From Candidatus Woesearchaeota archaeon (GTDB lineage: Archaea; Nanobdellota; Nanobdellia; Woesearchaeales; JABMPP01), in contig JAGVYD010000009.1 in the NCBI GenBank assembly GCA_018303405.1, positions 1-64,000 on the forward strand: 64,000 bases of DNA. The letters are read 5' to 3'. Position 1 is the stretch's first letter. Every line of letters starts with the position of its first letter. A model generated the notes under the pieces. It saw only the letters and a program-made list of their open reading frames with translations. It did not search any database and was not told the DNA's origin. The position numbers and the translations under genes are program-made. This document shows positions 17,867 through 37,926 of this stretch, piece by piece.

Positions 17867-18925
17867 ATGGCGCTGAGAAGCCTCAAAGGCAAGAAAGGGG
17901 ATGCCAATGAGCAGGTACTTTGGGTACTTGGGGAAATGCTATTCGTGGTAACCTTCGGGGTGGCTGTTTTCACCTGGCTTTCTTCGCTGGAAAAAGACAC
18001 TACCCTTGAGAAGAATTACCTGGCCAGGGACCTGAGCCTGGTTGTTGGCGCAGCCTACTCTTCACCGGGCGGGCTTGAATATGAATATGCGCAGACCCTC
18101 GTCAACCTGTCTGACTATAATTTCTTTTTCAAATCGCAAATTCTTTCTGTCAGCGAAAAAGCCGACAAGAAGAAAGGAAGCCTGTATTACTGGTATGCCG
18201 ACAATAAAATCAGCAAGTCGTTTCTTGACAAGGAGCTTGACGGGCCAGCGACAATCAAGGTATGCAATTCTGGCGGAGAAGTGGTTGTTGGTGAAGAAGA
18301 ATGCCTGAGCGTTGTCCTGCCAAAATGCCCCGAGGCTGAGACAAAGCTTGACAGAAAGCCTGTAATCATGCTGGACCCGGTGTTTGGAGGGGCAGAGACA
18401 GGCAAGACAAGCCCTGATGGCACCGCCAAGGAGGCTGAGATTGCGAGAAAAATAGCGCTTTCCCTTCAAAATTATGATGTGGCAGGGCATTTTACCATTA
18501 TTCCCACAAGGGACCTGAATTTTGACCTTGCTGATGACCAAACCATGACAATTGACGACAGAAAAGAATTGCTTTCAAGGACAAGCTATGACGTGCTGGT
18601 GAAAATCAGCATTGGCGAATACAGCGATGACAGGACTGCTGTAAAGGTCTGGGTCCCGGATTTTGCAATAAGGAACATGCTCAATGAAAAAATGGGGTGC
18701 AATATCGGCAACATGCTCCTGCAAAATGTCCCTGACATTGCCTCAGCAAGCCCGCCGATTGAAAAAATTGACCCATTGCTTAACCTGAAGGAAGAGCCAG
18801 GCGTTGTGGCAATTGAGCTGGAGCTTGGAAACATTAACAGCCCTGATGCAGAGCTGCTGTCGGCTCCTGGAAAAACCGCAAAGGCGATCTATGACGCACT
18901 GAAATTTTACTATGGAATCGATTAA
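17867..18925 (+). CDS. Class III signal-peptide protein with degenerate amidase_3-like domain
   Basis: 352 residues. GKKGD at residues 8-12, helix at about 21-41. Residues about 165-350 follow the order of N-acetylmuramoyl-L-alanine amidase (Amidase_3) motifs: LDPVFGG (D170-G175) where active enzymes have DPGHGG; KEAEIARKIA with E189; PTRD; LLSR; VKISIGEY where active enzymes have SIHAN; and IELELGNINSPDAELL, where E319 matches the catalytic glutamate. Both zinc histidines are replaced, by F173 and G250, while both glutamates remain. The domain therefore looks like an inactive, binding version. Active relatives cut peptidoglycan stem peptides. The next gene overlaps or follows within 20 bp. 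Fold assignment is by motif order only. Confidence 0.72.
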   Translation: MALRSLKGKKGDANEQVLWVLGEMLFVVTFGVAVFTWLSSLEKDTTLEKNYLARDLSLVVGAAYSSPGGLEYEYAQTLVNLSDYNFFFKSQILSVSEKADKKKGSLYYWYADNKISKSFLDKELDGPATIKVCNSGGEVVVGEEECLSVVLPKCPEAETKLDRKPVIMLDPVFGGAETGKTSPDGTAKEAEIARKIALSLQNYDVAGHFTIIPTRDLNFDLADDQTMTIDDRKELLSRTSYDVLVKISIGEYSDDRTAVKVWVPDFAIRNMLNEKMGCNIGNMLLQNVPDIASASPPIEKIDPLLNLKEEPGVVAIELELGNINSPDAELLSAPGKTAKAIYDALKFYYGID

Positions 18926-20174: not shown

Positions 20175-23057
20175 ATGCAAGGAAATAAGCAAGCACGGGG
20201 ATTTTTTAGAAGGGAAAAAGGCTTGATTTTCAGCCCTTCGATAGTCCTGATAGCATTTGCTGCCCTGCTTTGGGGATTCATAATAATCCAGGCCAAGAAT
20301 GCTCCTGAAAAGCATGAAATAGGGGAAAGGCAGGTGCAGGTTTTCAAGGCAATTCAAAGAGGCGAAAGGGCCCTGCTTTACACCGACCTGTCTGCGATGC
20401 TTGCAGTGGACCAGGCTTTCTATGACCTTGGAGTCAACGGCGGTTTCGGTGAGATTAGCAATTGCGGGCAATACCTCGGAACCAACCTTTGGAATTCAAA
20501 AACAGGATACTGCATGCCTGACTCCACAGCTGAATTTCCCTTAATGTTCAATAAGGATTTCCAAAAAATCCTCGCGACTTATGATGATGTGATGATCTCT
20601 GTTGACAACTATGACTATAACTTTGACGCTTCCAAAAATGTCCTTGCAGGAATAGCGACAACGGATGTTGTTTTGCCAATCGGAACCCCGCAATTCCAGG
20701 CCGGGACTCTTGGTGGAGAACAAATTTATACTGCTTATTCCGCAGTTTACCAGCCTCCGAAGAATGCCCAGGAAACCCTTGAAAGGATTAATTCAGATTA
20801 TTCCGGCACAATTAGCCAGGCTTTGGCCGAGGATGGGATTTCTGGCCTGATTGACACTTCGCTTATGGCTGCAATGATTGCACAGGAAAGCAGGGGAGTA
20901 TATGATGCCATATCACCGACAGGGTGCCTCGGGGTTGCACAGGCATGCTACTGCACTGCATGGGCATATTCTTCGCTTCCAAAGGGCGGCGGATGCCAAG
21001 GATACAGCAAGACAGGCATTGAATTATACCAGAAGCTCAAGACATGCAATTGCGTTGGGACAGGCAACTCCAAGGTTTGCGAGTGCAATCCTGGAAATGA
21101 TGACAGGTTCCAGGTTGATCCGTCAATAAAGCTTATGTCACACAGGCTCTCATCAGCATTGGACCATTATGATGGATACAAGGAACAGCTGATTCTTGGG
21201 ATAACGGCATACAACACAGGAGAAGGCGTGCTGGACAAGGCAATACAAAAGGCATCAGCTGGCGGGGCCAATAAGAAGGATTTGACATGGGCAGAGATTG
21301 CCAGCAAGATTGATGCAGGGCTTGTTGCAGAGCTTATACCATACTTCAGGACACGGCCTGCTGAGGCGCAGAGGCAAGTCCGGGACCTTTTGGCTTATGC
21401 CCAAAGCGTGCTTGGCTACAGGCAAAAATATCTTGAGTTGTATCCAAGTAGCCCTGGCAGTGCCAGTCCTGACCCTGAAAGGCCAGTTGTCATAGAACAG
21501 AAGAAATATTCCTCGTCAACAATAGTCGGCGCCTCTGGAAAATATGCAATAAAGCCGTCATTCAGTGTTGAAATCCCCTTCAGCTTCCAGGATTACAAAA
21601 ACATTATGGAGGAAAGCCTGAAGATGATTGCGGCATGCAACAACACTGGGCAGGTTGAAAAATGTGTTGCTGACTTTGTAGCAGGATTGAATTCAAAATG
21701 GGGTGAAAACCTTGTGTGGGATATTGGAGAATGCGGGCAATACCCGGATACCTTGGTCAGCCAGATTGCTGAAGGCATGGAAGACTGCAGGAGCAGCATT
21801 GAGGACAATTGCACATGCCTGGTTCAGCTTCCGCATAAGGATGACCCGATAATAGCGGAGAGCTACATTTCCATGAAGAACAGGCTTGGCAATCTTGACA
21901 TGTATTATGGAAGGCTGGAAGATGAGGATGCAAGCCAGGAAACCGGGACGCGCAGAAAGGCAGGATACAACATGAAAAATGCAAATGTGAGCCTGCTTGC
22001 CTTAAGCGATGAGCAGGAGCCAATGCAAAATGCAGAAGACCTGGAAATACAGATAATTTTCAGCTCGGACAGATTTGACAGGGTAGTGTTTAGCGGGAGC
22101 GAAACAGGATACGGCACCGAATGGATTTATGATGAAAACAGCAAGCTTAGTGAGGAAAATGATGTTATCCTTCTTTACAAGATGGGCAATAATTTATCCT
22201 TTGTGAAGCCAGGTGATGCTGCACGGCCAGACCTTGCAAGAAAATGCGGCCCGGACAGGACGACAAAGATTTGCGTCAGGACTAAAACTGAATTGGTCGC
22301 CTATGACGCTGATGATGAAGAGGTCAAAAATAGGAATGCCAAAGTCGGGTATGCTGTGTACATCCCTGACAATATCCCGCCTGCGAAAGTCAGGAACATC
22401 CTGGCTGAAGACGCCCCTGGTGCAGAGAATGCGCTGCGAATAACATGGGACAAGGGCAGCGAAGAGGATATAATGAGGTACAGGATTTACTATTCAACTG
22501 AGCCGTTTTCTGAAATCAGCAATTTTAACCCAGTGCTTTTCCTCGCAGATGAAGTGGAAAAGAATCTGGATGATGCTCAGACAACACAGAGCAGCATTAT
22601 ACGAGGATTAAGCCTTTATGACAACCTGGCTGAAAGGAACAGATATTACATAGCTGTGACAGCAGTTGATTATGTTGGCAATGAAGAAAAAATGATTGGG
22701 GCCGCGCCAGGCCCTGATGGCTCTGGCGGCAATGCGGAAATTGATGACATAGATGATGCACGGCCTGTGATAATACCCGGGTTTTTTGCGCAGGCGAGCG
22801 GAGGCTCAGTGACTTTATTGTGGAACAAGCCGGATACAAATAATGATGGAAGCAGGGTTTGGGACCTTCAGGGATACAGGCTTTACAATGGCGACGACAG
22901 TTTTGTGGCAAATATTGTTAATGCGGAAGCCACAACTTATACAGTTGAAGGTGTTTCAAGCGGGACGCACAGCTGGAAGCTGGAAGCAGTCGATGAAACA
23001 TGGAAAAGCGCAACTCCTGCATTGAAAATTGAAAGCAACAGCGTTGAGATTCCGTAG
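20175..23057 (+). CDS. Membrane-anchored lytic transglycosylase (SLT)-like protein with FN3 domains
   Basis: 960 residues. RREKG at 12-16 and a helix at about 21-39 anchor it. Residues about 220-415 contain the hallmarks of SLT/goose-lysozyme-type lytic transglycosylases in order: MIAQES with the catalytic glutamate at E238, SPTGCLGVAQ (the GxxQ loop), and ITAYNTGEG at about 343-351. A cysteine-rich insert of about 60 residues lies between the second and third motifs. Residues about 430-720 are unrecognised. Two fibronectin type III-like domains follow (about 735-840 and 860-958). The family cleaves the MurNAc-GlcNAc bond of peptidoglycan, a polymer DPANN archaea are not expected to make. Target in a bacterial neighbour, or another glycan such as pseudomurein, is inference. 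Last gene of the pilin-like run. Confidence 0.8.
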   Translation: MQGNKQARGFFRREKGLIFSPSIVLIAFAALLWGFIIIQAKNAPEKHEIGERQVQVFKAIQRGERALLYTDLSAMLAVDQAFYDLGVNGGFGEISNCGQYLGTNLWNSKTGYCMPDSTAEFPLMFNKDFQKILATYDDVMISVDNYDYNFDASKNVLAGIATTDVVLPIGTPQFQAGTLGGEQIYTAYSAVYQPPKNAQETLERINSDYSGTISQALAEDGISGLIDTSLMAAMIAQESRGVYDAISPTGCLGVAQACYCTAWAYSSLPKGGGCQGYSKTGIELYQKLKTCNCVGTGNSKVCECNPGNDDRFQVDPSIKLMSHRLSSALDHYDGYKEQLILGITAYNTGEGVLDKAIQKASAGGANKKDLTWAEIASKIDAGLVAELIPYFRTRPAEAQRQVRDLLAYAQSVLGYRQKYLELYPSSPGSASPDPERPVVIEQKKYSSSTIVGASGKYAIKPSFSVEIPFSFQDYKNIMEESLKMIAACNNTGQVEKCVADFVAGLNSKWGENLVWDIGECGQYPDTLVSQIAEGMEDCRSSIEDNCTCLVQLPHKDDPIIAESYISMKNRLGNLDMYYGRLEDEDASQETGTRRKAGYNMKNANVSLLALSDEQEPMQNAEDLEIQIIFSSDRFDRVVFSGSETGYGTEWIYDENSKLSEENDVILLYKMGNNLSFVKPGDAARPDLARKCGPDRTTKICVRTKTELVAYDADDEEVKNRNAKVGYAVYIPDNIPPAKVRNILAEDAPGAENALRITWDKGSEEDIMRYRIYYSTEPFSEISNFNPVLFLADEVEKNLDDAQTTQSSIIRGLSLYDNLAERNRYYIAVTAVDYVGNEEKMIGAAPGPDGSGGNAEIDDIDDARPVIIPGFFAQASGGSVTLLWNKPDTNNDGSRVWDLQGYRLYNGDDSFVANIVNAEATTYTVEGVSSGTHSWKLEAVDETWKSATPALKIESNSVEIP

Positions 23058-24784: not shown

Positions 24785-25336
24785 GTGGCAATTTTGGACA
24801 AGGATAATAAAAACGACAAAAATGAACTTCTTGATATATTGAGGACTCTAATTCAACAGATCAAGGAAAAAAGAGGCCTGACAAAAGATGAGCTTTTGGG
24901 GTTGCTTGAAGAGGAAGGAACCACTGTTCCGCTTTATGTTTTTTCAACTCCTTTAGGGCCGCTGGAAGCCCTTGTCAAATTCCTGAAAGAAGAACGCAAC
25001 TTGAAATTCAGTGAAATTGCCAGCATTCTTGGCAGGGACAATAGAAGCATCTGGAGCAGTTATAGGCATGCAATTGCCAAAATAAAAAATCCGCTGTCGG
25101 CATATGCAAAAGAATCCAAAAAGAAAAAGGCAGATGCAAGATTGGAGAGTTTAGCGGTTATCCCAATTGATGCCGGTATTTTTTCTGACCGCAAATTAAG
25201 CGTTTTTGAGCACCTTGTTGCCTATCTAAAGGAAACAAAGGGCATCAGCGTGGCCGACATTTCCAAAATTGTCAATAGGTCCAATGGAACAGTCTGGGCA
25301 ACTTACCATAATGCAAAGGTGAAGCTAAAAGCATGA
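24785..25336 (+). CDS. Two-repeat HTH protein, probable transcription regulator of the giant surface gene
   Basis: 183 residues from GTG 24785; TTG 24779 is an alternative and there is no clear ribosome site for either. Two similar helix-turn-helix units are visible: about residues 60-105 (PLGPLEALVKFLKEERNLKFSEIASILGRDNRSIWSSYRHA in sense, with the core EIASILGRDNRSIW) and about 135-180 (core DISKIVNRSNGTVW). Both end W-x3-Y-x2-A, and resemble sigma-region-4-like or homeodomain-like DNA-binding repeats. Its stop overlaps the ATG of the 4197-residue protein (ATGA), so the two are translationally coupled. Regulation of that gene is inferred from position. Confidence 0.75.
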   Translation: MAILDKDNKNDKNELLDILRTLIQQIKEKRGLTKDELLGLLEEEGTTVPLYVFSTPLGPLEALVKFLKEERNLKFSEIASILGRDNRSIWSSYRHAIAKIKNPLSAYAKESKKKKADARLESLAVIPIDAGIFSDRKLSVFEHLVAYLKETKGISVADISKIVNRSNGTVWATYHNAKVKLKA

Positions 25337-28300
25337 GCAGCAGGAAACCCATTAGGAAAGAGAAAATTACAAATCCAGGGGAGCACCTTGAGGAATGGAA
25401 AAAGTTCAAGGAGCAGCTGAAAGAGCATTATGAGAGCAATCCTGACCAAAAAATCCAGGACAAGGACCTGCATTACTGGAAAGAACATGCTGACAACAGG
25501 ATTGCCAGCCTCGAAGACGAGGTCAAAAAGGCAGAACGAAAGCAGAAATGGGCTGCTGGGCTCCCATATGCGTATCTGGTTGTATTGCTTTTTGTTGCGC
25601 TTTTCCTGGGCAATGGAAATCTTACCGGATTCGTTGTGAGTGAGCAGGCATATGACTCAGACCTTGGCGGCTTTATTGGCTACAGCGAGAGCATTGGAAT
25701 CTCATACGTTGATTCCAACCAATACATGTGGCAGCCTGACCAGGCAGGAACAATTACCGCAGTGAGGCTTTCAGGCACTGTGATTGGGGAAGGAACAGCC
25801 AGGGTGTACCTGGCAGACGGCAGTAGCAAATACTTGATTTATGATTCAACCGGGGACAAGCTGGCTCTGGCTGATGGAAGCGCAAAGCCCGGCTGGCCAA
25901 CATATGCAGAAGACTACAATGACAATATTTCAGCCATAATGGAATATGCGCAGGACAGTGAATTTGACACTGACAATGATGGGCTTGAGGCTGAAAATGG
26001 CGTTGTTGACTTTACTGTTGAAAACAGCGATTTTGGGCAGGGCATGGCTGATGATGGCAAATGCACAAGGTGGGAGATTTACTCAGAGGATGAAAAGGAA
26101 TCGAGCTTTGAATGCTATGGCGCTGAAAGGTGCTGCAATTTCATCGGCCTGATACCTGCTGCAAATGACTGGAATGAAAGGTATTATGTCTTCAAGGGAA
26201 AATACACAGCGACTGAGAACAATAAGGTAAGGTCGCAGCTGGTCTATGTCTCTGAAGATGGATGGGGTATTCATTCAACAGGGTGGATGGAGTTGAATGC
26301 CAGGTTTGAGTCTGCAAACAAGATAACCTTTGCCAGGCAATGCCGGGAAACATGCGACATGTCACTTGCCTCAGACCATTACTTCCTGCTTTTTGAGCTT
26401 GATAATGCAGCTGTGAGCATTGACAGCATCGAATACGCACTTAAGGATGATGGAATAATTGCTGGCACAGTGGTTTCAGGCAATCAAAGCATCAATGAAT
26501 CATATGATGCAGCAAATGCGTCTGATGCAGCAGAAGAGATTCCTGAAGCGGAAATTGTTGAGGAGGAATTGGAACAGGGCGCATTGGATAGAGGCGATGT
26601 TTCTGTTGATGGCAAAGTATTGGAGGAGATTTCCGGGAATGGAAAAGCAAGGGTTATCCTGAAGAAAAAAGTGCAGCCTTCAGTGCTTGACTTTGCAGCT
26701 GTGCTGGAGGCTGCAATACAGGGAGACACTGGCCAAATCAAGACAGTGAATTTCGCAAGGGATGAATTCTTTGAGGAAATGCAGGGCATGGAAGGCATAA
26801 CTGGCTTTGCACCGCAGGATGCCGGCCTTCTGGAAGAAAAGATAAAGGAAAAGAAAAAGGATGTGGCGGATTCGAAGAAAGCGGCAGAGGATGTCACCAG
26901 CCTGCTGGCATCTGCCAATATTTTGAAAATTGAGCAGGAAACAGATGACATTATTGCAGTTGAGATAGATGCAGCTGACCTTGCTGATTTGGTAGCAAGC
27001 GGGGAGTTCAGTGAGATAGCTGTTGATGAGCCCGTTTCGCTCTTCATAGAAGAAAGCATGGCCCTCACAAAAATAGCTGATGTGAAAAATACAGGATATG
27101 ACGGGACAGGCAGGAAAATCTGCTTCCTGGACACGGGAATGAATTATGATGCATTTGGACTGGCCCTGAATTCAACAGTGTTCGGAAAGGATTTCATAAA
27201 TGATGACGATGACCCAATGGATGACCATGGCCACGGGACAAGCGTTGCCAATGTGCTGCTCAATGTTGCACCGTCAGCCAGCATTTACTCGGCAAAGGTC
27301 GTCAATGCATCCGGGTATGGCTATGAATCTGATGTCCTGGCAGGATTGCAGTATTGCATGGACCAGAATGTTGATGTCATTTCATTCAGCATCGGCTCCG
27401 GAATGTCAGATGGCTTTTGCGATTCAAATCTTGTTGCATCACTGAGCAATGACGCGGTTGAGCAGGGGATTTATGTTGCCTCGGCAACAGGCAATGACGG
27501 CAGCCAGACAGGATTAAGGGTGCCTGCGTGCGCGAGCAAGGTTGCGAGGGTTGCTGCTACCACAAAGCAGGATGAAGTTGCCCCATATTCCAATGTCAAT
27601 GAAATAGTGGATATATTTGCGCCCGGAAGCCTGATAAATACAATTGACCTGAACGGCAATGCAATTGTCAGCAGCGGAACATCGTATTCTGCTCCTTTTG
27701 TCGCAGCATCTGCTGCCTTGCTGCTGCAGAATGAAAGCCTTGCCCCGGCTGAGATGACCTACAGGCTGAGAAGCACTTCTGAAGTTTTCAATTATTCAGG
27801 GATACAAAGGAACAGGCTGAGTCTATGGAACGCCCTAATTGATAATGTGACAAATGAACCGTATGATTATAGTGCGGGTGAAGCAAATGCCAGTACAAGT
27901 GTGTATGTAGTGCAGTATTCATATGTGAGCAGTGTAGTAAGCGATCCTATTCTATATTCTGTAGCGGACGAAGATACAGGAGACCGATCTTGGAGTACTA
28001 TTGCTACTGGATATGATCCCAGGTATGCTGCTGTCAGTGATAATGCATATTCGAGAGTTTATCTTGGTAGTAATGACGTTTCCGATTATTTAAACCTAAC
28101 TCATTTCACCTTTACAAGCATACCCAGTACAGCTGTTGTGATGGGTATTGAAGTCGCTGTGGAAAGACACTGCATCAATACTTGCGATGTATTTAGTGAT
28201 CACACAGTTCAATTATTAAAAAATTCAGTTCCTGTGGGCGATAATAAGGCTACAGGTTTGTATGACTGGAATCCTACGACAGATACAGTCGTGACTTATG

Positions 28301-31300
28301 GCTCAAGCACTGATTTATGGGGGACTTCATGGTCTCGATCTGACGTGACAAACAGTTGGTTTGGAGTAAGATATGCTGTCCAAAATGGTGTCGATAGGCA
28401 GTATCAGGCTCGTGTGGATATGATAAACATAACAATCTATTATAATATGCCACCAACAATTTACCAGCAGATAAATTTCACCAATTGGACTAGCGCACAT
28501 GCTTTCAATATGAGCGCAGCTGTCACTGATGTCGATGGGGCTTCAGACATATTGTTTACGAATTATACAGTAAACAATACCAATGTTGTTTGCCATCCGG
28601 GCAGCAATAGCAGCAATGGAAATGTATTTAATGTGACATACAATTGCAGCGGTCCTGCGTTGACGCATGTGAAAGTGATGATTAACTTCTCTGATACTGC
28701 TGGCAATCATATATTCACTAATTATAGTGAATATATTGTGCCGAATCTGCCTCCTACCATAACAAGTGGCTCGGTTTACCCAAACACTGTTTATGTGGGA
28801 AATAATGTTACCATGAATATTAATACAATGTCAGATCCTGAAGGCGATGGAATAACAAAGTTCTGGTACAGGTTTTACAGCGGCGGACTATCCCAGAGCA
28901 ACATTGTCCAGGACTGGACAGTCTTGAACAGGACAAACTACACAATACAAGTGACAGACGCGCACAAGACAATATACATTCGCGCTAAAGTTGAAGATAA
29001 TTACACCAATAGCTCAGAATATACACGACAAGTTGCTGTAGCTAACTCTCTGCCAGGCCATGACATCAACATGTCACTGTACCCCCTGAGCGGCGCCTAC
29101 ATGACAACAACATTGAGAGCAAACTGCAATTTCACAGATGCAGATGGAGACTCATATACGAGGTATTATAATTTCTATGATGTAAATGATAGTGCCTATC
29201 GCACAGGTTGGACAACAACTCCAACATACACTCCAAGTTCACATGCAGCCAATGCGCATGATAACTTAACTGCCAGCTGCAAGGCAAATGATGGGTATGG
29301 TGACTCGGAAGAAGTCTACACCAACCTGACAATAACCGTGCATATGGATAATACAGCCCCTGGAACGCCAACCTCGCTGTCCTTGACAAATCCAGTCTAT
29401 GTCGGCAGCACCTTGACGGCTTCAGGCAGCGGAGCCAGTGATGCGGACAGTGACACATTGTCATACTACTACGACTTCTACAATGTGAATGATTCCACCA
29501 GCCTTCAAAGTTATTCCACTGATGCTACTTATGTGCTTGCCGCATCTGATGCGCATGACAGAATTAGGGTAAGGGTTTACGCCAATGACACCCTGAATGG
29601 AGGCAATTACTACGAGCAGAATAGGACTGTAAGCAACAGCAATCCTGCTATGTACAAACAGAATGTGGTCAATCACTCCCATACCTCGCACAGCTTCATT
29701 GTGACAGCAAATGTATCAGACGATGACACTGCAGCTGACATAATCCATACCTCAATTGCAACAACCTCGGGAACTTGCACACTAGTAGGCAATTCAACGT
29801 CAGGAAATTATTATGGCGCCAAATACAATTGCACCGGAACCCCGTATCAGTCCACCACAATTAGGATAGGTTTCAAGGACGCCTTTGACGCAACAGTCAA
29901 CAGCACAGCAACATCGCATACCTACATAAACCATGTCCCTGAAGTCTACCTCCAGAACAACTTCACAAACGCAAGCATTGGGCACAGCTTTATTGTGGCA
30001 GCAAATGTGTCAGACAACGACACATACACTGATATTGTGGCAACAAGCATTGCAATCTCATCAGGCTCGTGCACCCTGCTTGGCAATTCCTCTGCTTGGA
30101 GGTATTTCGGAGTGAGATATAATTGCACAGGATTGGGATTAGTGCCGGCTTCAGCGAGCATTGGCTTCCTTGACATTGCAGGAGACGATATAAACACAAC
30201 CACTTCAACCAACCATTATCCCAACAATGCCCCGACATTATTGAGCGATGTGACATTTGCCAACCTATCCGGCTACCATGGATTCCTTGCGACTGCAAAC
30301 GCTACTGACCTTGACGGTGCATCGGACATAAGGGTTGTTGCGATAAACACGAGCAACGGGACATGCGACTATGTAAGAAATTCCTCATCGCTGAATAATT
30401 TCGGCGTTGTTTTTAACTGCACTGGAAAAGGCCTGGAGATCGCAAGCGTGATTGTCAATTTCACAGACAATTCGTCAGAATTCATCACCACGTCAGGGGC
30501 GAATACTTACCCGAATATGGCGCCTGAAATTAATCCTGTAAGCCTGAACCAAAGCACTTTTGCCACAACCGAGGAGATTAATGCCAGCGCCCTTGCCTGG
30601 GATGACGACCTGGATACCCTAAACGCCACATTCTACTGGATTGTAAACGGCATAGGCAGGTTTACTGATACCAGGTGGGTAATACCATATAATACGAACA
30701 TATCCTCAGTGTTAGCGTCAACAGGATACCATGCCTTTGAGAGAATCAAAGTAAACATCACAATACTGGACAACAACAGCTACCAGAATTCAACTGTGAG
30801 CATGGAATACTTTATTTATGATTCAAATGCTCCTGAAATCGGGCTGCTCAGCCAGTCCTCAGGATACTATGACAATATTACAGACATAACCTTGTCGGCA
30901 GAGGCACAGGATGAAGATGGGGTGTGGTATGCCTATATCGCCACAAACGAGTCAGGTGCCTGGAGCAATCATACAACTCTTACGAACTTCCCATTGGGCA
31001 ATTACAGTGACTTCAACTTCACTGCCAATGAAACCCATATTACAGGCATGGCATATGTCAGCTCAAAGTATTATATCATAGGAAACGATACAGCGAGAGT
31101 TAGGGAAATAAACGAAACAGGCGGATTCACGAATTTCAATTTCAGCGTTGCTGCACAGGATACCAATCCAACTGGCATTGCCTTCATCAACGGCAAGTTC
31201 TATGTGCTTGGAAATGCAACTAACTCAGTTTACGAATACAACATGACAGGCAACTACACAGGCTTCAACTACAGTGTTGGGAGCCAGGACACTGCGCCGC

Positions 31301-34300
31301 TGAGCCTTGCTTATGCCAATGGAAAGATGTATGTGCTCGGCCAGGCAAACAAAAGGGTTTACGAATATAATGTTTCTGGCGGCTATACAGGCTACAGCTG
31401 GAATGTTGCTGATGTTGAAACTGACCCAAGAGGCTTAACATTTGTCTATCCAAATTTCTACCTGGCAGGGGCTTCGGGGCTTTCAGTGTTTGAATTTAAT
31501 GGCTCAGGCAATTATTCAGGGAGAAGCATGAATTTCAGCCAGCACATAGCAGACCCTCAAGCAATAACTTTCGGAAGCGGAAAGTTCTATATCGCTGATT
31601 CAGTCACGGGGCTTGTCTTTGAGTATCACAACCTGAGCAGCTACAACTCTCCCGTTGCTGTCAATTCCTACCCCTATGAATACTCCATTGAATCATTCAT
31701 ATGGAACAACCACAGCAAGCTGAACAAGGATGTTGTGGCATGGAGGATATACAGCGTTGATTACTCAGGCAACATTAATACCAGCGCAGTCAGGACATTC
31801 ACAGTAGTCACAACAACGCAGGGGGAAATTGAAATGGAACCGGGAAGCGATTTCCCGTATAATGCCAGCTATGTCCAGAACAATATAACACTGCATCTGA
31901 ATCTGAGCAACATAGGGGCAGCAAATATGACAGATGCGAACATGACAATTTCATTCTCAGCAGGAGACTGGCTGACAAACCTGTCTAACAATTTCATATC
32001 ATGCGGCAATGTCACAAACGGCACAAAATGCAGCAGGGACGTGACGATTTCAATTCCTGGGAATGAAGCGTCCGGACTGTATACAGTCTCAGTTATAGGG
32101 GAATGGATAAATCCCGACACCACAAGCGACTTTACCCTGGCCAGCTTTGCAATGAACATACTTGAGCACCCGAACATAAGCGTCTCAAGGGCAAATGTAA
32201 GCATTGAGACACAACATGGAAGATCGACATTATTGGCAAATATAACAATCAATTCAACAGGCAATACAGTCACGCCCACGATTTACCTCAATGCTGACAG
32301 CGGCAACCTTTCATCATCTTACATAGTTTTCAGCCCTGGCTCGGGAACATTCTCACTGGCGCAGGGCACACAAAAAAATGTCAGCGTATATGCCAACCTT
32401 CCGGCCGGCCTGGCCCAGGGACTTTATGCCGTTGACATTACAACTGTGATGGGAACATTGCAGAGAGGCAACATTACAATATTCGTGACAGTGCCGGAGG
32501 ACACAACCTGGAACATAACGCATGATTTGGTCAATGGGACAGAGGTTGACCAGGGCGCCACAGATTATGTGCTCGGAAATATTACAATCAATAACAGGGG
32601 CAATACCCTGGATGCCTACCAGTCCAGCGATACTTCCTCATACATTACAAGGAGCCCGTCCGGGGCTTTCACAGTTGTCAACCAAACTGGGAATGGGATA
32701 ACAATCACAGCCACAGTTGCATCTGATGACCCAGCAGGGACCCAAACTTACAGCGTGACTGTATTCCGCTCAGCGAATTTCTCAGACAGCATAACCATAC
32801 TTGCAAATTTCAGTATCGCCAACAAGCCGCCGAACATAACCAATGTTGCCCTGTCTGATGATTATCCTGAAATGAACTATGGCCATACAACAATAAGCGC
32901 AAATGTCACGGATATTGGAGGAGTTGATGCAGTCTGGGCAAACATAACCCTCCCTGACTCAAGCTTTGTTATCCAGGTAATGGCCAATATCTCTGACGCT
33001 GAATATGAATTAAATTACACTCCAACAAATGCCGGCACCCATTATGTCACAATCTATGCAAATGACACTGAAAGCAACATAAGCTTCTCATCATCATTGC
33101 CCTTCTACCCGATTGAAACAGTGAGCCTCTATGCATATTTCAACTCCACTTCGGAAACAGTGTCAGGCATCACACAGTCGGATGGATTTGACATAGACAT
33201 AAATGTTTCAGTCAACAAATCAGGCAAGGGAACTGGCTATAACGCAAATACGACCTGGTCATTGCCAGCTGGCTGGAGTGTTTCGCCGAGCATGACCACC
33301 CATGGCAACCTAACCTTGAATGAGACTGCAGTGTATTCAATCACAATCCCGCCGGGCACATCTGCCGGAACCTATGCTGCAGTTGCAAATGTCAGCTGGA
33401 AGAACCCAAACAATTCCTACAATTTCTCAACCAGGAACATCACAGTCACTGTGTCGAGCAACCCGCAGCTGGGCATGGCTGCAACAGGAAGCCAGACAAT
33501 CAGCCACAACACAACAGGCACAGTCGAATTCTATGTGAATGCAACAGGCAATGATGAAGTGAGCAACATAAACCTTTCATGCTATTCAGGCATTGTGTGC
33601 ACCGACTTCACAACATCCATCAATGAATCGCACATTGACTTGGTTGCGGGAGAAAACAGGTCGTTGTCAATAAATGTAACTGTGCCTAAAGGCTATGCGC
33701 CAGGAACCTACACCGGCCAGGTTAATGCCTCTTCATCCAGCCTGAATGTTTCCATGGAATTAAGCATCACTGTGCCAACAGATGACAACTGGTATTTGAG
33801 CCCTGCTCTGTTCAATAATTCAGTGGGCTATGGCAATATCGGATCATTTGGCACACTGACAATTGTCAGCACAGGAAATGTGAACCTGACATTTGACACA
33901 AACAGCACCAACATGAGCATGGCTGCACCAAATGTCACAAGCATATTTGTCCAGGCCAATAGCGCAGCATATATCACTGTAAATTACACTGCGCCCAACA
34001 CCCCTGGTACGCATAATGCGAACATCAGCATTTTCAATGCGAGCAGCACAGTGACAACACAGAATGTAACAGGATGGCTAAGCGTGGTGAATTTTGTTGT
34101 ATTCCTGGACTTCCCACAGAACGGCAATGCAGCGACAACATCATCTGGATATAACCTGTCAATTAGTGCTGTGGGATTTGTAGATAATGCGGAACTGCTT
34201 GAAAACTTAACATGGACAAGGGTGACAATTTATGATGTTGATTGCCCAATCTATGCGCAGGACTTCGAGACAATAAATTGCACTACGCCAAGCCTGGATG

Positions 34301-37300
34301 ATGGCCCATACTATGACATAAAGGTATGGGGAAATTTCACAAATTACTCTGCAATAGCCACAACAACAGAATCAGGGGCAGTCCATTACATTGACCTTAC
34401 GCCGCCTGTTTTCCACAATTGGACTGAGCCAAGCGCTGCGAACGGCAGCGATGTGATGGTGGAGATGAATGCTTCTGATAATGTTAATGTCACTAATGTT
34501 TCAATTACTGTTGTATATGAAGATGGCACAAATTTCACAAGCCTGATGCAACAGCTTGGAAACCTGGTAACATTCCGGGCAATCTTAAGCGGAAGCGTCG
34601 GGGACTATGATGTCTATTTCACTGCAACGGACAATGCATCCAACACAAGGAATGCAACTGGTTATTATGAGATCTATATCCCGGTAAATATCACAGGTGA
34701 AGTCACAGACAGCAACGGAGATGCGGCAACTGCAAGCTTCAGGCTTCTCAGGCCGTCCAACAACAGAACACTGTTCAATTTCACAGGAGGCAGCTATAAT
34801 TTCACAAGCCATGAAATCCACCAGAGAAGATACGATGTCGAGATATGGCAGGACACTTCAAGGATTTTCCTTGCAAATGTTTCCTTCAATGACAGCCTGC
34901 AGGATTTCTTTGACTTTGACACACTTGGCCTGAATGTGATAACCGAAATTCCAATGTACAGGGAATTGAAGGGGTTGGCTGTTTCATCAAACTTAAGCAG
35001 CCAGACCGGAAACATAACTTTCAATTATTCCGGGATGGCAATAGATGATCCAATTGATGTAACTGTTTTGGGCTGCTTAAATTGGAGTTTCGCATCAGGC
35101 CAGACAACATGCGATGGCACATGGGCAGAACTTGGCAATGTCAGCAAGGACATTAGCAGATATACAGTCACCGGCCAGATAACAGGATTCTCGGCATACA
35201 TTGCAGCAGAAAATAGGTGTGGAAATGGCAATTGTGAAACAACCTACAGCGAAACTGTGTCGAATTGCGCAGTGGACTGCGCAGCAAGCTCATCCTCAAG
35301 CAGCACATCAAGCAGCAGTAGCAGTGGTGGAGGGGGCGGAGGAGGCGGAGGTGGCGGATCTGCATCAGCCGAGCCTAATGCCACAGCCCTGCAGGAGCAG
35401 TTGAACGAGACCAGGCAGCAGCTCAATGAAACAAAGGAGTTGCTAAAGGATTTGGGAACTGCTGTGAAAAAGCTTGAAGTCGGCCTGTCAAGGCTGGAAT
35501 TTGAGCTGTACCAGGGTGAAACAGCAACAACAACCTTAACTTTACAGAATGCACAGCTTACAGACACTTATGTCCTGCTGGAGCTTGAAGGAGATGCCGG
35601 ACAATTCATCTCGATTGAGGACAACAGCTTCACAATGGCTGGCAAGCAGTCATCAAGCCTGTTAATTACAGTTGACATTCCAAAAGACACAAAAGCTGAA
35701 ACTTATAGGGGCTACTTGATTGTCAAATCAGGCGGGGAAGAAAACAGCATTCCAATTAGGATTAAGGTGCTGGAATTCTCCCAGCTTCTGGATTTCAGGA
35801 TAGAGCCACTGGAGGAGATTGTGCAGCAGGGCGACAATGTGAGGATACAGGCCAACTTCATCAACCTCGGAACTGAGAGGATAGATGACATAACATTCGA
35901 GCTGAGCCTGGTTGATGTGCAAAATGGCGAGCTAATAGACAGCGTTGAGGACACTGTTTCTGTGAGGACAACATCCAGCATTACAAAGAAATTGAGGACA
36001 ACCAAGAAAACAGGGATAGGAGATTATCTTGTTCAAGGCAAGGCAAAATATGGGACAGGCACAAGAATAGATGAGGTTGAGGCAACAACCCATGTCGCAG
36101 TCATCACCTCCCAGAAATTCGAGCTGCCTGGCCCGCTGAAAACAGTCCCAATATGGCAGCTGATCGTGGCAGTTGTCACGCTAATACTGATGTCAACAGG
36201 CACAGTATCTGTTTACAAGACAGTGCAGAGGAAAAAACGCTACCAGTTCAAAGTAAATTCTGCGCTGCTGCCCAAAAAGGCTGAAAGAAATGTGGAGATT
36301 GGCAGGCTTGCAGAAAGCATGACCTCCAGCTATCTTGAGCTGGACAAAATGCAGACTCATACCATTGTTGCCGGAGCCACGGGCTCTGGAAAAAGCGTTG
36401 CATCACAGGTAATTATTGAAGAGGCCCTGAAGAAAGGGATAGCAGTGATTGTATTTGACCCAACTGCCCAATGGTCAGGATTCCTGAGGCCGTGCCAGGA
36501 GCAGCAGATGCTTTCAAAGTACGCCAAGTTTGGCATGAGCACAAAGCAGGCAAAGGCTTTCAACGGGAATATCTACCAGGTAAACAACCCGCTAGAGATA
36601 GTGGATGCGCAAAAATACGCAAAGCCAGGCGAGATTAACATCTTCAGCCTGCACAGGCTTGAGCCAAAAGATGTAGACATGTTCCTCACAAACACGATTA
36701 GGCAGATATTTATGTCCACGCCGGAGGAGTCGCCGAAGCTGAAGCTGCTGGTGGTATACGACGAAGTCCACAGGCTATTGCCGAAATTCGGCGGCTCCGG
36801 CGCTGGATTTGTGCAGGTTGAAAGGGCGTGCAGGGAGTTCAGGAAATGGGGAATAGGCCTTGTGCTCATCAGCCAGGTATTGTCGGACTTTGTGGGTGAA
36901 ATCAAGGCGAATATAGGCACGCAAATACAGATGAGGACTGCAGATGAGAAAGACCTGGAAAGGCTGAGGGTAAAATACGGAGAGGAGATTGTCAGAAGCA
37001 TTGTCAAGGCGGACACCGGGACAGGAATGCTGGAGAATCCATCATACAACAAGGGCCTGCCATACTTTGTCAGCTTCAGGCCATTGCTGCACAGCGTGAC
37101 AAGGCTCGGTGACATTGAGCTTGCAAGATATGACCTGTACAACAGGAAAATAGACGACATGCGATACCAGATGGAGCAGTTGGAGGCAGAAAAGATTGAT
37201 GTGTTTGAGCTGAAGCTGGAGCTGGACCTTGCCCTTGAAAAGCTAAAGATAGGGAAATTCGACATGGTTGACATTTATCTTGAAAGCATTGAATCAAGGC

Positions 37301-37926
37301 TGCAGAAATACTGGCTGCAGCTGAAGAAGAGGCCAAAGAGAAAGCAGGTGCAGCTGGCCAAATTGGAAGACATTATAAAGCTGACCCAGAGGGATGTGAT
37401 GATGAGGCAGGCTGAGCAGAGAAGGCCGAGCCTCGGCAATTCCAAGGTCGCAAAGGCTATATTGAACAATGCAAGGCCGGGCAGGATATATATCATAGAA
37501 GAAAAAGGGATAGAAGGAAGCATTTTGGCCTCGACAGCCATTGCCAATAAGGGCTATAAGTCAATTTTGATGACAAACAAGAATCCCGCCATGCTGTACA
37601 GGCAATTCAGGCTGCAAAATACGCAAATGTTCATGTTCAATGCATATGACAGGAATGGAAGCATCACTGACGAAAGCCTGGAAAGGCTGTACTACAGCAT
37701 AGCCGAGGTTATGAACAGGAACCCGAAATCAGTGATTGTCATCGACGGGCTCGTTGGGCTGAGGAACCATGTGGAATTCAGGAAGCTGGTCATGTTTGTG
37801 AACTATCTGAAAAATGCAATCGCAAAGAAGGAGGCAATAATTTTGGCGCCCATGTCCGGCACCCCTCTTTCAGACGCTGAATATGAAGCTATGAAAAAGG
37901 ATGCTGACCTGATAAGGCCGACCTGA
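25333..37926 (+). CDS. 4197-residue surface protease/adhesin fused to HerA-like ATPase and DUF835-like domain
   Basis: In order: a cytoplasmic coiled N-terminus (1-75); membrane helix (about 76-93); a beta region; an S8 subtilase domain with Asp600 (FLDTG), His634 (HGHGTS), Asn721 (ATGND) and Ser784 (SGTSYSAP), all catalytic residues present; a phage-tail-fibre-like beta domain (about 870-1035); many Ig-like repeats dense in N-x-S/T sequons; a propeller of about five blades (about 1890-2110); further beta repeats; a CGNGNCE cysteine motif; an S- and G-rich linker (about 3320-3345) and short coiled coil; membrane helix 2 (about 3606-3630); then a cytoplasmic ATPase with Walker A GATGSGKS (K3687) and Walker B LLVVYDE (D3810/E3811), resembling HerA/VirB4-type pumps; and a C-terminal DUF835-like RecA-fold remnant. 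No stop or frameshift is seen. It ties an outside protease and adhesin to an inside ATPase in one chain. Host-contact role is inference. Confidence 0.88.
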   Translation: MSSRKPIRKEKITNPGEHLEEWKKFKEQLKEHYESNPDQKIQDKDLHYWKEHADNRIASLEDEVKKAERKQKWAAGLPYAYLVVLLFVALFLGNGNLTGFVVSEQAYDSDLGGFIGYSESIGISYVDSNQYMWQPDQAGTITAVRLSGTVIGEGTARVYLADGSSKYLIYDSTGDKLALADGSAKPGWPTYAEDYNDNISAIMEYAQDSEFDTDNDGLEAENGVVDFTVENSDFGQGMADDGKCTRWEIYSEDEKESSFECYGAERCCNFIGLIPAANDWNERYYVFKGKYTATENNKVRSQLVYVSEDGWGIHSTGWMELNARFESANKITFARQCRETCDMSLASDHYFLLFELDNAAVSIDSIEYALKDDGIIAGTVVSGNQSINESYDAANASDAAEEIPEAEIVEEELEQGALDRGDVSVDGKVLEEISGNGKARVILKKKVQPSVLDFAAVLEAAIQGDTGQIKTVNFARDEFFEEMQGMEGITGFAPQDAGLLEEKIKEKKKDVADSKKAAEDVTSLLASANILKIEQETDDIIAVEIDAADLADLVASGEFSEIAVDEPVSLFIEESMALTKIADVKNTGYDGTGRKICFLDTGMNYDAFGLALNSTVFGKDFINDDDDPMDDHGHGTSVANVLLNVAPSASIYSAKVVNASGYGYESDVLAGLQYCMDQNVDVISFSIGSGMSDGFCDSNLVASLSNDAVEQGIYVASATGNDGSQTGLRVPACASKVARVAATTKQDEVAPYSNVNEIVDIFAPGSLINTIDLNGNAIVSSGTSYSAPFVAASAALLLQNESLAPAEMTYRLRSTSEVFNYSGIQRNRLSLWNALIDNVTNEPYDYSAGEANASTSVYVVQYSYVSSVVSDPILYSVADEDTGDRSWSTIATGYDPRYAAVSDNAYSRVYLGSNDVSDYLNLTHFTFTSIPSTAVVMGIEVAVERHCINTCDVFSDHTVQLLKNSVPVGDNKATGLYDWNPTTDTVVTYGSSTDLWGTSWSRSDVTNSWFGVRYAVQNGVDRQYQARVDMINITIYYNMPPTIYQQINFTNWTSAHAFNMSAAVTDVDGASDILFTNYTVNNTNVVCHPGSNSSNGNVFNVTYNCSGPALTHVKVMINFSDTAGNHIFTNYSEYIVPNLPPTITSGSVYPNTVYVGNNVTMNINTMSDPEGDGITKFWYRFYSGGLSQSNIVQDWTVLNRTNYTIQVTDAHKTIYIRAKVEDNYTNSSEYTRQVAVANSLPGHDINMSLYPLSGAYMTTTLRANCNFTDADGDSYTRYYNFYDVNDSAYRTGWTTTPTYTPSSHAANAHDNLTASCKANDGYGDSEEVYTNLTITVHMDNTAPGTPTSLSLTNPVYVGSTLTASGSGASDADSDTLSYYYDFYNVNDSTSLQSYSTDATYVLAASDAHDRIRVRVYANDTLNGGNYYEQNRTVSNSNPAMYKQNVVNHSHTSHSFIVTANVSDDDTAADIIHTSIATTSGTCTLVGNSTSGNYYGAKYNCTGTPYQSTTIRIGFKDAFDATVNSTATSHTYINHVPEVYLQNNFTNASIGHSFIVAANVSDNDTYTDIVATSIAISSGSCTLLGNSSAWRYFGVRYNCTGLGLVPASASIGFLDIAGDDINTTTSTNHYPNNAPTLLSDVTFANLSGYHGFLATANATDLDGASDIRVVAINTSNGTCDYVRNSSSLNNFGVVFNCTGKGLEIASVIVNFTDNSSEFITTSGANTYPNMAPEINPVSLNQSTFATTEEINASALAWDDDLDTLNATFYWIVNGIGRFTDTRWVIPYNTNISSVLASTGYHAFERIKVNITILDNNSYQNSTVSMEYFIYDSNAPEIGLLSQSSGYYDNITDITLSAEAQDEDGVWYAYIATNESGAWSNHTTLTNFPLGNYSDFNFTANETHITGMAYVSSKYYIIGNDTARVREINETGGFTNFNFSVAAQDTNPTGIAFINGKFYVLGNATNSVYEYNMTGNYTGFNYSVGSQDTAPLSLAYANGKMYVLGQANKRVYEYNVSGGYTGYSWNVADVETDPRGLTFVYPNFYLAGASGLSVFEFNGSGNYSGRSMNFSQHIADPQAITFGSGKFYIADSVTGLVFEYHNLSSYNSPVAVNSYPYEYSIESFIWNNHSKLNKDVVAWRIYSVDYSGNINTSAVRTFTVVTTTQGEIEMEPGSDFPYNASYVQNNITLHLNLSNIGAANMTDANMTISFSAGDWLTNLSNNFISCGNVTNGTKCSRDVTISIPGNEASGLYTVSVIGEWINPDTTSDFTLASFAMNILEHPNISVSRANVSIETQHGRSTLLANITINSTGNTVTPTIYLNADSGNLSSSYIVFSPGSGTFSLAQGTQKNVSVYANLPAGLAQGLYAVDITTVMGTLQRGNITIFVTVPEDTTWNITHDLVNGTEVDQGATDYVLGNITINNRGNTLDAYQSSDTSSYITRSPSGAFTVVNQTGNGITITATVASDDPAGTQTYSVTVFRSANFSDSITILANFSIANKPPNITNVALSDDYPEMNYGHTTISANVTDIGGVDAVWANITLPDSSFVIQVMANISDAEYELNYTPTNAGTHYVTIYANDTESNISFSSSLPFYPIETVSLYAYFNSTSETVSGITQSDGFDIDINVSVNKSGKGTGYNANTTWSLPAGWSVSPSMTTHGNLTLNETAVYSITIPPGTSAGTYAAVANVSWKNPNNSYNFSTRNITVTVSSNPQLGMAATGSQTISHNTTGTVEFYVNATGNDEVSNINLSCYSGIVCTDFTTSINESHIDLVAGENRSLSINVTVPKGYAPGTYTGQVNASSSSLNVSMELSITVPTDDNWYLSPALFNNSVGYGNIGSFGTLTIVSTGNVNLTFDTNSTNMSMAAPNVTSIFVQANSAAYITVNYTAPNTPGTHNANISIFNASSTVTTQNVTGWLSVVNFVVFLDFPQNGNAATTSSGYNLSISAVGFVDNAELLENLTWTRVTIYDVDCPIYAQDFETINCTTPSLDDGPYYDIKVWGNFTNYSAIATTTESGAVHYIDLTPPVFHNWTEPSAANGSDVMVEMNASDNVNVTNVSITVVYEDGTNFTSLMQQLGNLVTFRAILSGSVGDYDVYFTATDNASNTRNATGYYEIYIPVNITGEVTDSNGDAATASFRLLRPSNNRTLFNFTGGSYNFTSHEIHQRRYDVEIWQDTSRIFLANVSFNDSLQDFFDFDTLGLNVITEIPMYRELKGLAVSSNLSSQTGNITFNYSGMAIDDPIDVTVLGCLNWSFASGQTTCDGTWAELGNVSKDISRYTVTGQITGFSAYIAAENRCGNGNCETTYSETVSNCAVDCAASSSSSSTSSSSSSGGGGGGGGGGGSASAEPNATALQEQLNETRQQLNETKELLKDLGTAVKKLEVGLSRLEFELYQGETATTTLTLQNAQLTDTYVLLELEGDAGQFISIEDNSFTMAGKQSSSLLITVDIPKDTKAETYRGYLIVKSGGEENSIPIRIKVLEFSQLLDFRIEPLEEIVQQGDNVRIQANFINLGTERIDDITFELSLVDVQNGELIDSVEDTVSVRTTSSITKKLRTTKKTGIGDYLVQGKAKYGTGTRIDEVEATTHVAVITSQKFELPGPLKTVPIWQLIVAVVTLILMSTGTVSVYKTVQRKKRYQFKVNSALLPKKAERNVEIGRLAESMTSSYLELDKMQTHTIVAGATGSGKSVASQVIIEEALKKGIAVIVFDPTAQWSGFLRPCQEQQMLSKYAKFGMSTKQAKAFNGNIYQVNNPLEIVDAQKYAKPGEINIFSLHRLEPKDVDMFLTNTIRQIFMSTPEESPKLKLLVVYDEVHRLLPKFGGSGAGFVQVERACREFRKWGIGLVLISQVLSDFVGEIKANIGTQIQMRTADEKDLERLRVKYGEEIVRSIVKADTGTGMLENPSYNKGLPYFVSFRPLLHSVTRLGDIELARYDLYNRKIDDMRYQMEQLEAEKIDVFELKLELDLALEKLKIGKFDMVDIYLESIESRLQKYWLQLKKRPKRKQVQLAKLEDIIKLTQRDVMMRQAEQRRPSLGNSKVAKAILNNARPGRIYIIEEKGIEGSILASTAIANKGYKSILMTNKNPAMLYRQFRLQNTQMFMFNAYDRNGSITDESLERLYYSIAEVMNRNPKSVIVIDGLVGLRNHVEFRKLVMFVNYLKNAIAKKEAIILAPMSGTPLSDAEYEAMKKDADLIRPT

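Follow-up and report, generated by a model that had tools for sequence, protein, structure and literature searches.

We analysed a 64,000-nucleotide stretch of DNA (hereafter the window; positions 1 to 64,000 of contig JAGVYD010000009.1, assembly GCA_018303405.1), which forms the start of a 323-kb contig in a 1.6-Mb, 95% complete assembly of 23 contigs; the organism is a woesearchaeote. Translation of the window gives a forward-strand frame at 25333-37926 that is open throughout, from ATG to stop, over 4,197 codons (12.6 kb), and an intact frame of this length with domains such as those described below is beyond chance. An initial annotation, made from the sequence alone, had read this frame as a single polypeptide that joins an exterior subtilase and adhesin array to an interior HerA/VirB4-like ATPase; the frame is uninterrupted, and the single-polypeptide reading stands. 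Features of the giant gene and its immediate neighbours are collected in Table 1.

Domains and topology of the giant protein

Hydropathy identified only two helix candidates in the giant protein, at residues 74-92 and about 3610-3628 (the second helix is placed at about 3607-3634 in Table 1), in agreement with the two membrane helices noted initially. Six lysine or arginine residues precede the first helix and none follow it, while two precede and seven follow the second; nearly all of the 165 N-X-S/T sequons lie between the helices, with almost none in the ATPase part. The flanking charge bias and the sequon distribution fit a predicted topology in which residues 1-73 are cytoplasmic, an ectodomain of ~3,500 residues lies outside and the ATPase lies inside, and they place ectodomain and ATPase on opposite sides of the membrane, as the initial annotation had claimed.

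The subtilase domain was identified as Peptidase_S8 by Pfam (residues 591-816, E 3e-29, above the curated cut-off) and combines the Asp/His/Ser triad and the oxyanion Asn with a subtilisin fold; the full catalytic set reported initially (D600, H634, N721 and S784) is unchanged across an alignment of 8 relatives. In a fold comparison, pro-Tk-SP and pro-subtilisin E were the top matches of the AlphaFold model (3afg at E 7e-20); with a modest mean predicted local distance difference test (pLDDT) score of 64, this model served for fold only and not for geometry. Judged by its residues and fold, the subtilase is apparently intact. The model of the segment that precedes it resembles the pro-forms 3afg (ProN-Tk-SP) and 3whi, and the profile extends into the 3whi propeptide; model confidence is low over part of this propeptide-like segment. 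The best NCBIfam match of the S8 domain is mycosin (E 6e-25, below the mycosin cut-off), a likeness that may be generic for subtilases.

Ig-like (immunoglobulin-like), NEW3-like and propeller-like domains were found in the remaining ectodomain, which supports its description as adhesin-type. Repeats similar to those of the diverged repeat region are present in locus L085, where they sit in cis with the L085 ATPase. The short repeats at residues 1899-2107 probably form a propeller, as suggested by their self-similarity. Pfam PF10633 (E 1e-7) matches across part of the NEW3-like array, and arrays homologous to that of the giant protein occur in cis with the ATPase in genomes G184, G042, G253 and G112. 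For the membrane-proximal Ig pair, the top Foldseek matches are RbmA and similar Ig pairs.

The proposed HerA/VirB4-like ATPase, with Walker A GATGSGKS (residues 3681-3688) and Walker B VVYDE (residues 3807-3811), was recovered by motif, profile and structural comparison. Walker A, Walker B with its catalytic Glu, an RE-RK motif and an SQ sensor assign the domain to the HerA/FtsK/VirB4 group, and Walker A, the catalytic Glu and REFRKWG are conserved family-wide. The Pfam matches to DUF87/HerA (residues 3654-3750, E 6e-12) and HerA_C (E 4e-11) are both above curated cut-offs; a profile of the ATPase built from 16 relatives matches the solved hexameric HerA 4d2i (E 9.5e-15), other HerA/DUF87 proteins and FtsK. 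A structure prediction, which the initial annotation had called for, gave a single-chain AlphaFold model of residues 3400-4197 (mean pLDDT 84) with Foldseek matches to HerA 4d2i and EssC. In NCBIfam, CedD was the best match (3e-12), followed by HerA (6e-11), TraC (3e-8) and TraD, all well below equivalog cut-offs; for CedD (NF053655), the score was 45.9 bits against a cut-off of 600 bits. Superfamily membership is thus secure, while a function named after any one family is not, because every NCBIfam match falls under its equivalog cut-off. C-terminal to the ATPase core, Pfam identified DUF835 (residues 4069-4188, E 5e-11, above the curated cut-off); this segment has weak FlaH/ArlH matches in NCBIfam, and FlaH 4yds, one of the Foldseek matches of the model, is in keeping with DUF835. 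Literature searches on DUF835 and on S8/HerA in DPANN yielded nothing further.

Table 1. Features of the giant gene and adjacent genes (window coordinates)
Feature	Coordinates	Strand	Basis
Helix-turn-helix (HTH) regulator, 185 aa	24779..25336	+	Sigma70_r4-like/HTH Pfam matches
Giant S8-adhesin-HerA/DUF835 protein, 4,197 aa	25333..37926	+	Translation, Pfam
Transmembrane helix 1, residues 74-92, N terminus inside (predicted)	25552..25608	+	Hydropathy, flanking charge
N-terminal ectodomain module, residues 143-373	25759..26451	+	Aligned in own S8 paralogue; in cis with ATPase in G039
Propeptide-like segment, about residues 430-578	26620..27066	+	AlphaFold model match to pro-forms; profile
Subtilase (Peptidase_S8) domain, D600/H634/N721/S784	27103..27780	+	Pfam, alignment, fold comparison
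Diverged repeats, Ig-like by appearance, residues 1033-1143 and 1412-1750	28429..30582	+	Self-similarity; likeness to L085
Propeller-like short repeats, residues 1899-2107	31027..31653	+	Repeat self-similarity
NEW3/NPCBM_assoc-like domain array, to about residue 3290	31720..35202	+	Pfam, homologous arrays
Poly-Ser/poly-Gly linker (3319-3342) and probable coiled coil (3349-3387)	35287..35493	+	Sequence
Membrane-proximal pair of Ig-like domains	35530..36108	+	AlphaFold; Foldseek
Transmembrane helix 2, about residues 3607-3634	36151..36234	+	Hydropathy, helix in AlphaFold model, charge
HerA-superfamily ATPase core	36289..37077	+	Pfam, profile, NCBIfam, AlphaFold/Foldseek, motifs
Walker A; Walker B (REFRKWG and SQV motifs also in ATPase core)	36373-36396; 36751-36765	+	Motif reading
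DUF835 domain, RecA/KaiC-like fold	37537..37896	+	Pfam; FlaH/ArlH matches; Foldseek
Conserved downstream coiled-coil protein, 348 aa	38033..39079	+	Recurrence at related loci

Gene neighbourhood and integrity of the frame

The stop codon of the HTH regulator gene overlaps the start of the giant gene by 4 nt. In G023 (two loci), G089 and G016, an HTH homologue immediately precedes the gene for an ATPase giant, and in G152 and G185 HTH homologues are upstream of giants that carry an S8 domain without an ATPase (S8-only giants); such upstream genes often overlap the giant gene by 4 nt. In 65 of 96 ATPase loci, a same-strand gene no more than three places downstream encodes a homologue of the downstream coiled-coil protein; while coiled-coil matches can be spurious, this fixed position argues for a true association. 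The recurring cassette is a giant gene, often a short ATPase paralogue, and then the coiled-coil gene. Two neighbour clusters (proteins of about 243 aa and 1,019 aa) were not used, as they arose by single linkage and mix unrelated proteins, one of them KaiC-like.

The S8 and ATPase domains were not found together in one frame in the 45 other ATPase-bearing genomes, which were searched with PF00082 by contig and frame, nor among the matches listed in a survey of 288 genomes of the order; plasmid records held distant DUF87 proteins only. S8-only giants are common in the order, as are ATPase giants, and their joint frame was seen nowhere else, so it could be argued that the frame is an assembly chimera of one with the other; we consider this very improbable, as the open reading frame contains no direct repeat of at least 30 nt, its 4-kb middle is unique in the genome, it remains open throughout, and the genes upstream and downstream are those of ATPase giants. 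Most of the frame is, moreover, bridged by homologues linked in cis: the N-terminal module (residues 143-371) shares a chain with the ATPase in G039, L085 has repeats like residues 1033-1143 and 1463-1731 that are cis-linked to ATPase and DUF835, and residues 2711-4190 are colinear in L127/G042. The only parts left with no direct link of this sort to an ATPase chain are the S8 domain and about residues 842-1033; the genome's own S8 paralogue links the N-terminal module to S8. Misassembly, against which the initial annotation had cautioned, is thus unlikely, although the uniqueness of the combination calls for caution.

Further genes were observed in the window and at related loci. On contig C19 of the same genome (L055, 1720-4547), an HTH gene homologous to the regulator is followed, with a 4-nt overlap, by a gene for a 764-aa protein with a transmembrane-Ig-transmembrane-DUF835 layout and no ATPase; this gene pair looks like a reduced paralogue of the giant-protein cassette. 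Near S8-only giants, a downstream gene encodes a protein of ~400 aa with NEW3-type domains and a C-terminal transmembrane segment (L053, 1005-2216; L197, 17051-18322; L198, 14393-15796), which resembles the membrane-proximal part of ATPase giants. Within the window, an Amidase_3 gene (E 2e-8; 17867-18925) and an SLT transglycosylase gene (E 4e-8; 20175-23057) sit amid genes for small N-terminally anchored proteins; the former presumably lacks the usual zinc-binding His (DPVFGG, SIGEY), and the latter, in our reading, retains a Glu (AQESRG). A second large surface protein is encoded at 10-7200 (2,396 aa in the window; its start may fall outside), with adhesin-type repeats, Cys-rich modules, a C-terminal transmembrane segment with a charged tail, and a weak match to the pilus protein PamR of the candidate phyla radiation (CPR).

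Distribution of the ATPase family and relation to known systems

Giant proteins of this kind were described in 2019 by Hamm et al. as SPEARE proteins, with a presumed protease and restriction domain (PMC6642349); a 2023 paper reassigned the "restriction" domain to the VirB4/TraG-like ATPases, pointed out a partner ATPase gene, published the transmembrane-ectodomain-transmembrane-ATPase layout for Nanohaloarchaeota, proposed effector secretion and argued against any protease in the SPEARE class (PMC10266531). The woesearchaeote protein has the layout of this class, with a very long extracellular part, a transmembrane helix and a cytoplasmic C-terminal ATPase. Like the nanohaloarchaeal giants (that of Ca. 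Nanohaloarchaeum antarcticus, SVXNc_0300 and BNXNv_0298), it has thousands of extracellular residues with Ig-like and propeller repeats, and a cytoplasmic VirB4/TraG-like ATPase accompanied by a transmembrane helix near the C terminus. ATPase homology was tested on genome loci rather than on the published SPEARE sequences; the profile built from woesearchaeal ATPases finds giants in the phylum to which a record titled Nanohaloarchaea belongs (longest frame 12,145 aa, lowest E 1e-177), and loci titled Nanohaloarchaea or Nanohalarchaeota fall within the ATPase tree. The kinship with nanohaloarchaeal giants that the initial annotation had raised is supported by layout, profile and tree, and the giant protein belongs to the known SPEARE kind; its design is not unprecedented. 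What the present data add is an apparently intact subtilase on the ATPase chain, the presence of DUF835, the woesearchaeote lineage, and gene pairs and a cassette that recur across the family. Specifically, the woesearchaeote giant carries an apparently intact subtilase on its chain, which PMC10266531 denies for the SPEARE class, and ends in DUF835 where nanohaloarchaeal giants end in a coiled coil; Nanohalococcus and Nanohalovita loci have a second ATPase gene directly downstream (PMC6642349, PMC10266531), whereas the woesearchaeote locus has none.

In its original sense, SPEARE implied a serine protease, which is present on the woesearchaeote chain, and a restriction endonuclease domain, which was not found there. 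A cytoplasmic restriction endonuclease that degrades incoming DNA could be read from a C-terminal ResIII match just over its cut-off (E 9e-5), but this candidate was rejected, as the match covers the P-loop part alone, DUF87/HerA scores are far better and domain searches found no nuclease domain in the giant protein. The SPEARE re-analysis also rejects the restriction reading (PMC10266531), which we regard as extremely improbable.

The ATPase family is widespread in DPANN. It is present in 79 of the 288 genomes of the order and, for the phylum that includes a locus titled Nanohaloarchaea, in 24 of 34 genomes; records with family members are titled Woesearchaeota, Pacearchaeota, Nanoarchaeota, Nanohaloarchaea, Aenigmatarchaeota and Diapherotrites. 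Dozens of DPANN loci share one layout, to which there are few exceptions among intact members: a helix close to the N terminus, then an ectodomain of about 220 to over 15,000 residues, then a second helix right before the ATPase. The search for the same architecture proposed in the initial annotation thus had a divided outcome: this general layout is common in DPANN, while the combination of S8 and ATPase was not found in the sample. The longest member has 15,809 residues; at this locus (G023:C41, L050-L052), an intact 15,809-codon frame ends in the family ATPase and is followed, with a 4-nt overlap, by a 699-aa ATPase gene. The G023 frame exceeds the 9,409 aa that a 2023 report gave for the largest protein from cultivated archaea. 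The ATPase tree puts the woesearchaeote giant in one group (support 92, not starred) with G039, L085 and L096, which are among the family members that bear DUF835 as well.

At ten loci, two of which are duplicates under other names, a short ATPase gene (about 690-840 aa) sits next to a long one, and further pairs were seen in the order survey. Paired short and long ATPases are sisters in some pairs and belong to separate clades in others. In one long clade, Gly or Ser replaces the Walker B catalytic Glu in 5 of 6 members, while the Glu is kept in all short (23/23), medium (36/36) and giant (19/19) members. Since Glu loss is confined to this paired long clade and short subunits keep the Glu, the sequences suggest rings of mixed composition in which the small subunit is the active one; because the long clade is one lineage, the Glu may have been lost just once. 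The source genome encodes one full-length family ATPase only and no short paralogue; many relatives are singletons, so that a second ATPase gene is not universal in the SPEARE class.

Outside the SPEARE class, the closest curated match is to CedD/CedB, from the Ced DNA-import system of Saccharolobus, which shares a transmembrane segment and a HerA/VirB4-like ATPase and, unlike the woesearchaeote giant, lacks a giant ectodomain or protease (CedD, the best match, scored 46 against 600 bits). The alignment with HerA 4d2i takes in the P-loop core, the Walker motifs and the RE-RK-GxG-SQ region. HerA itself is soluble and acts in DNA repair, whereas in the woesearchaeote giant the core follows a transmembrane helix. 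Type VII secretion (EccC and mycosin) likewise combines an FtsK/HerA-superfamily ATPase inside with a subtilase outside, but as two separate proteins. S8-only giants (the genome's own 2,203-aa C9 paralogue, G193, G185 and G239) share the N-terminal transmembrane segment, the long ectodomain and an S8 domain about 33-45% identical in members of the same order; they lack the second transmembrane segment and ATPase, and in several a separate ~400-aa membrane-anchored protein is encoded downstream.

A putative contact-dependent translocation device

We propose, as a reading about evenly poised between right and wrong, that the giant protein serves in contact with a host and that its ATPase, as a ring anchored in the membrane, translocates a macromolecule where the two cells meet. 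The ectodomain would bind a neighbouring cell; the subtilase would cut a surface protein of that neighbour and/or mature its own chain; and the ATPase domains would assemble beneath the membrane into a hexameric ring, joined in many relatives by the short paralogue, and drive the macromolecule through the membrane at the point of contact, inwards or outwards. DNA would be the likeliest substrate because of the kinship of the ATPase with HerA and CedD; a protein effector is also possible. Several points weigh against this proposal: the analysis identified neither a relaxase nor a substrate nor a translocation channel (VirB6/CedA type), with no search aimed at channel genes; the neighbours scanned included no VirB6-type channel, VirB8/VirB10-type core or pilus parts, with no dedicated search for type IV secretion systems; HerA-type matches span only parts of the profiles; a mixed ring in the source genome would need a partner other than a short paralogue; and the cited literature reports no biochemical test of the ATPase or protease of any member.

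The initial annotation had concluded that protease, adhesion and motor are physically coupled. All three are encoded on one chain; they may not stay coupled, because the propeptide-like segment between helix 1 and the subtilase could be a maturation cut site and because ectodomain and cytoplasmic peptides of the Ca. Nanohaloarchaeum antarcticus giant ran in different gel size ranges (PMC6642349). These same observations, together with the frequency of S8 giants without an ATPase in the order, speak for a possible role of the subtilase in maturation or shedding of its own protein or own surface layer rather than in host attack. This role, which is compatible with the proposed translocation, falls somewhat short of an even chance in our assessment; most ATPase giants have no S8 domain, which is thus not needed for maturation across the family.

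A more specific possibility is DNA uptake, in which the ring would draw host DNA into a nucleotide-poor symbiont and adhesin and subtilase would open access. The nearest curated ATPase families are the DNA translocases CedD, HerA and TraC/TraD, and CedD, a transmembrane protein with a HerA/VirB4-like ATPase, is essential for DNA import in Saccharolobus (PMC11868833). We nevertheless consider uptake unlikely, since this likeness is superfamily-wide and under equivalog cut-offs, EccC, a protein exporter, sits in the same superfamily, and the cassette yielded no channel, nuclease or DNA-binding partner, channel genes not having been a search target.

Alternatively, the ATPase might not pump at all and instead power assembly, clustering, stiffening or retraction of the adhesin, or signal contact to the cell. 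The downstream coiled-coil partner and DUF835 resemble scaffold or signalling parts, the long subunits of one clade lack the catalytic Glu, and the C19 paralogue keeps DUF835 without an ATPase; however, no other part of these proteins is as well conserved as the ATPase, all translocase motifs are kept in most members and HerA relatives are translocases, and we rate a non-pumping role as distinctly unlikely.

Extended to the family, the translocation proposal would describe a DPANN-wide contact-dependent system unlike known type IV secretion systems, in which one polypeptide serves as arm, protease, anchor and ring ATPase, the ring is in many lineages mixed, with a small active subunit and a giant or long one that in some cases is catalytically dead, and a dedicated regulator and a coiled-coil partner belong to the system; we offer this extension tentatively, as rather less probable than not. 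Giant surface proteins are one of the few candidate means by which DPANN archaea exploit their hosts at the molecular level. The serine-protease idea for SPEARE merits a fresh look, because the woesearchaeote giant has an apparently intact protease, denied in 2023, in cis with the motor. The family as a whole, with its cassette, its pairs of intact and Glu-less ATPases and its chains of up to 15,809 residues, leads to testable predictions on ring composition, substrate and direction.

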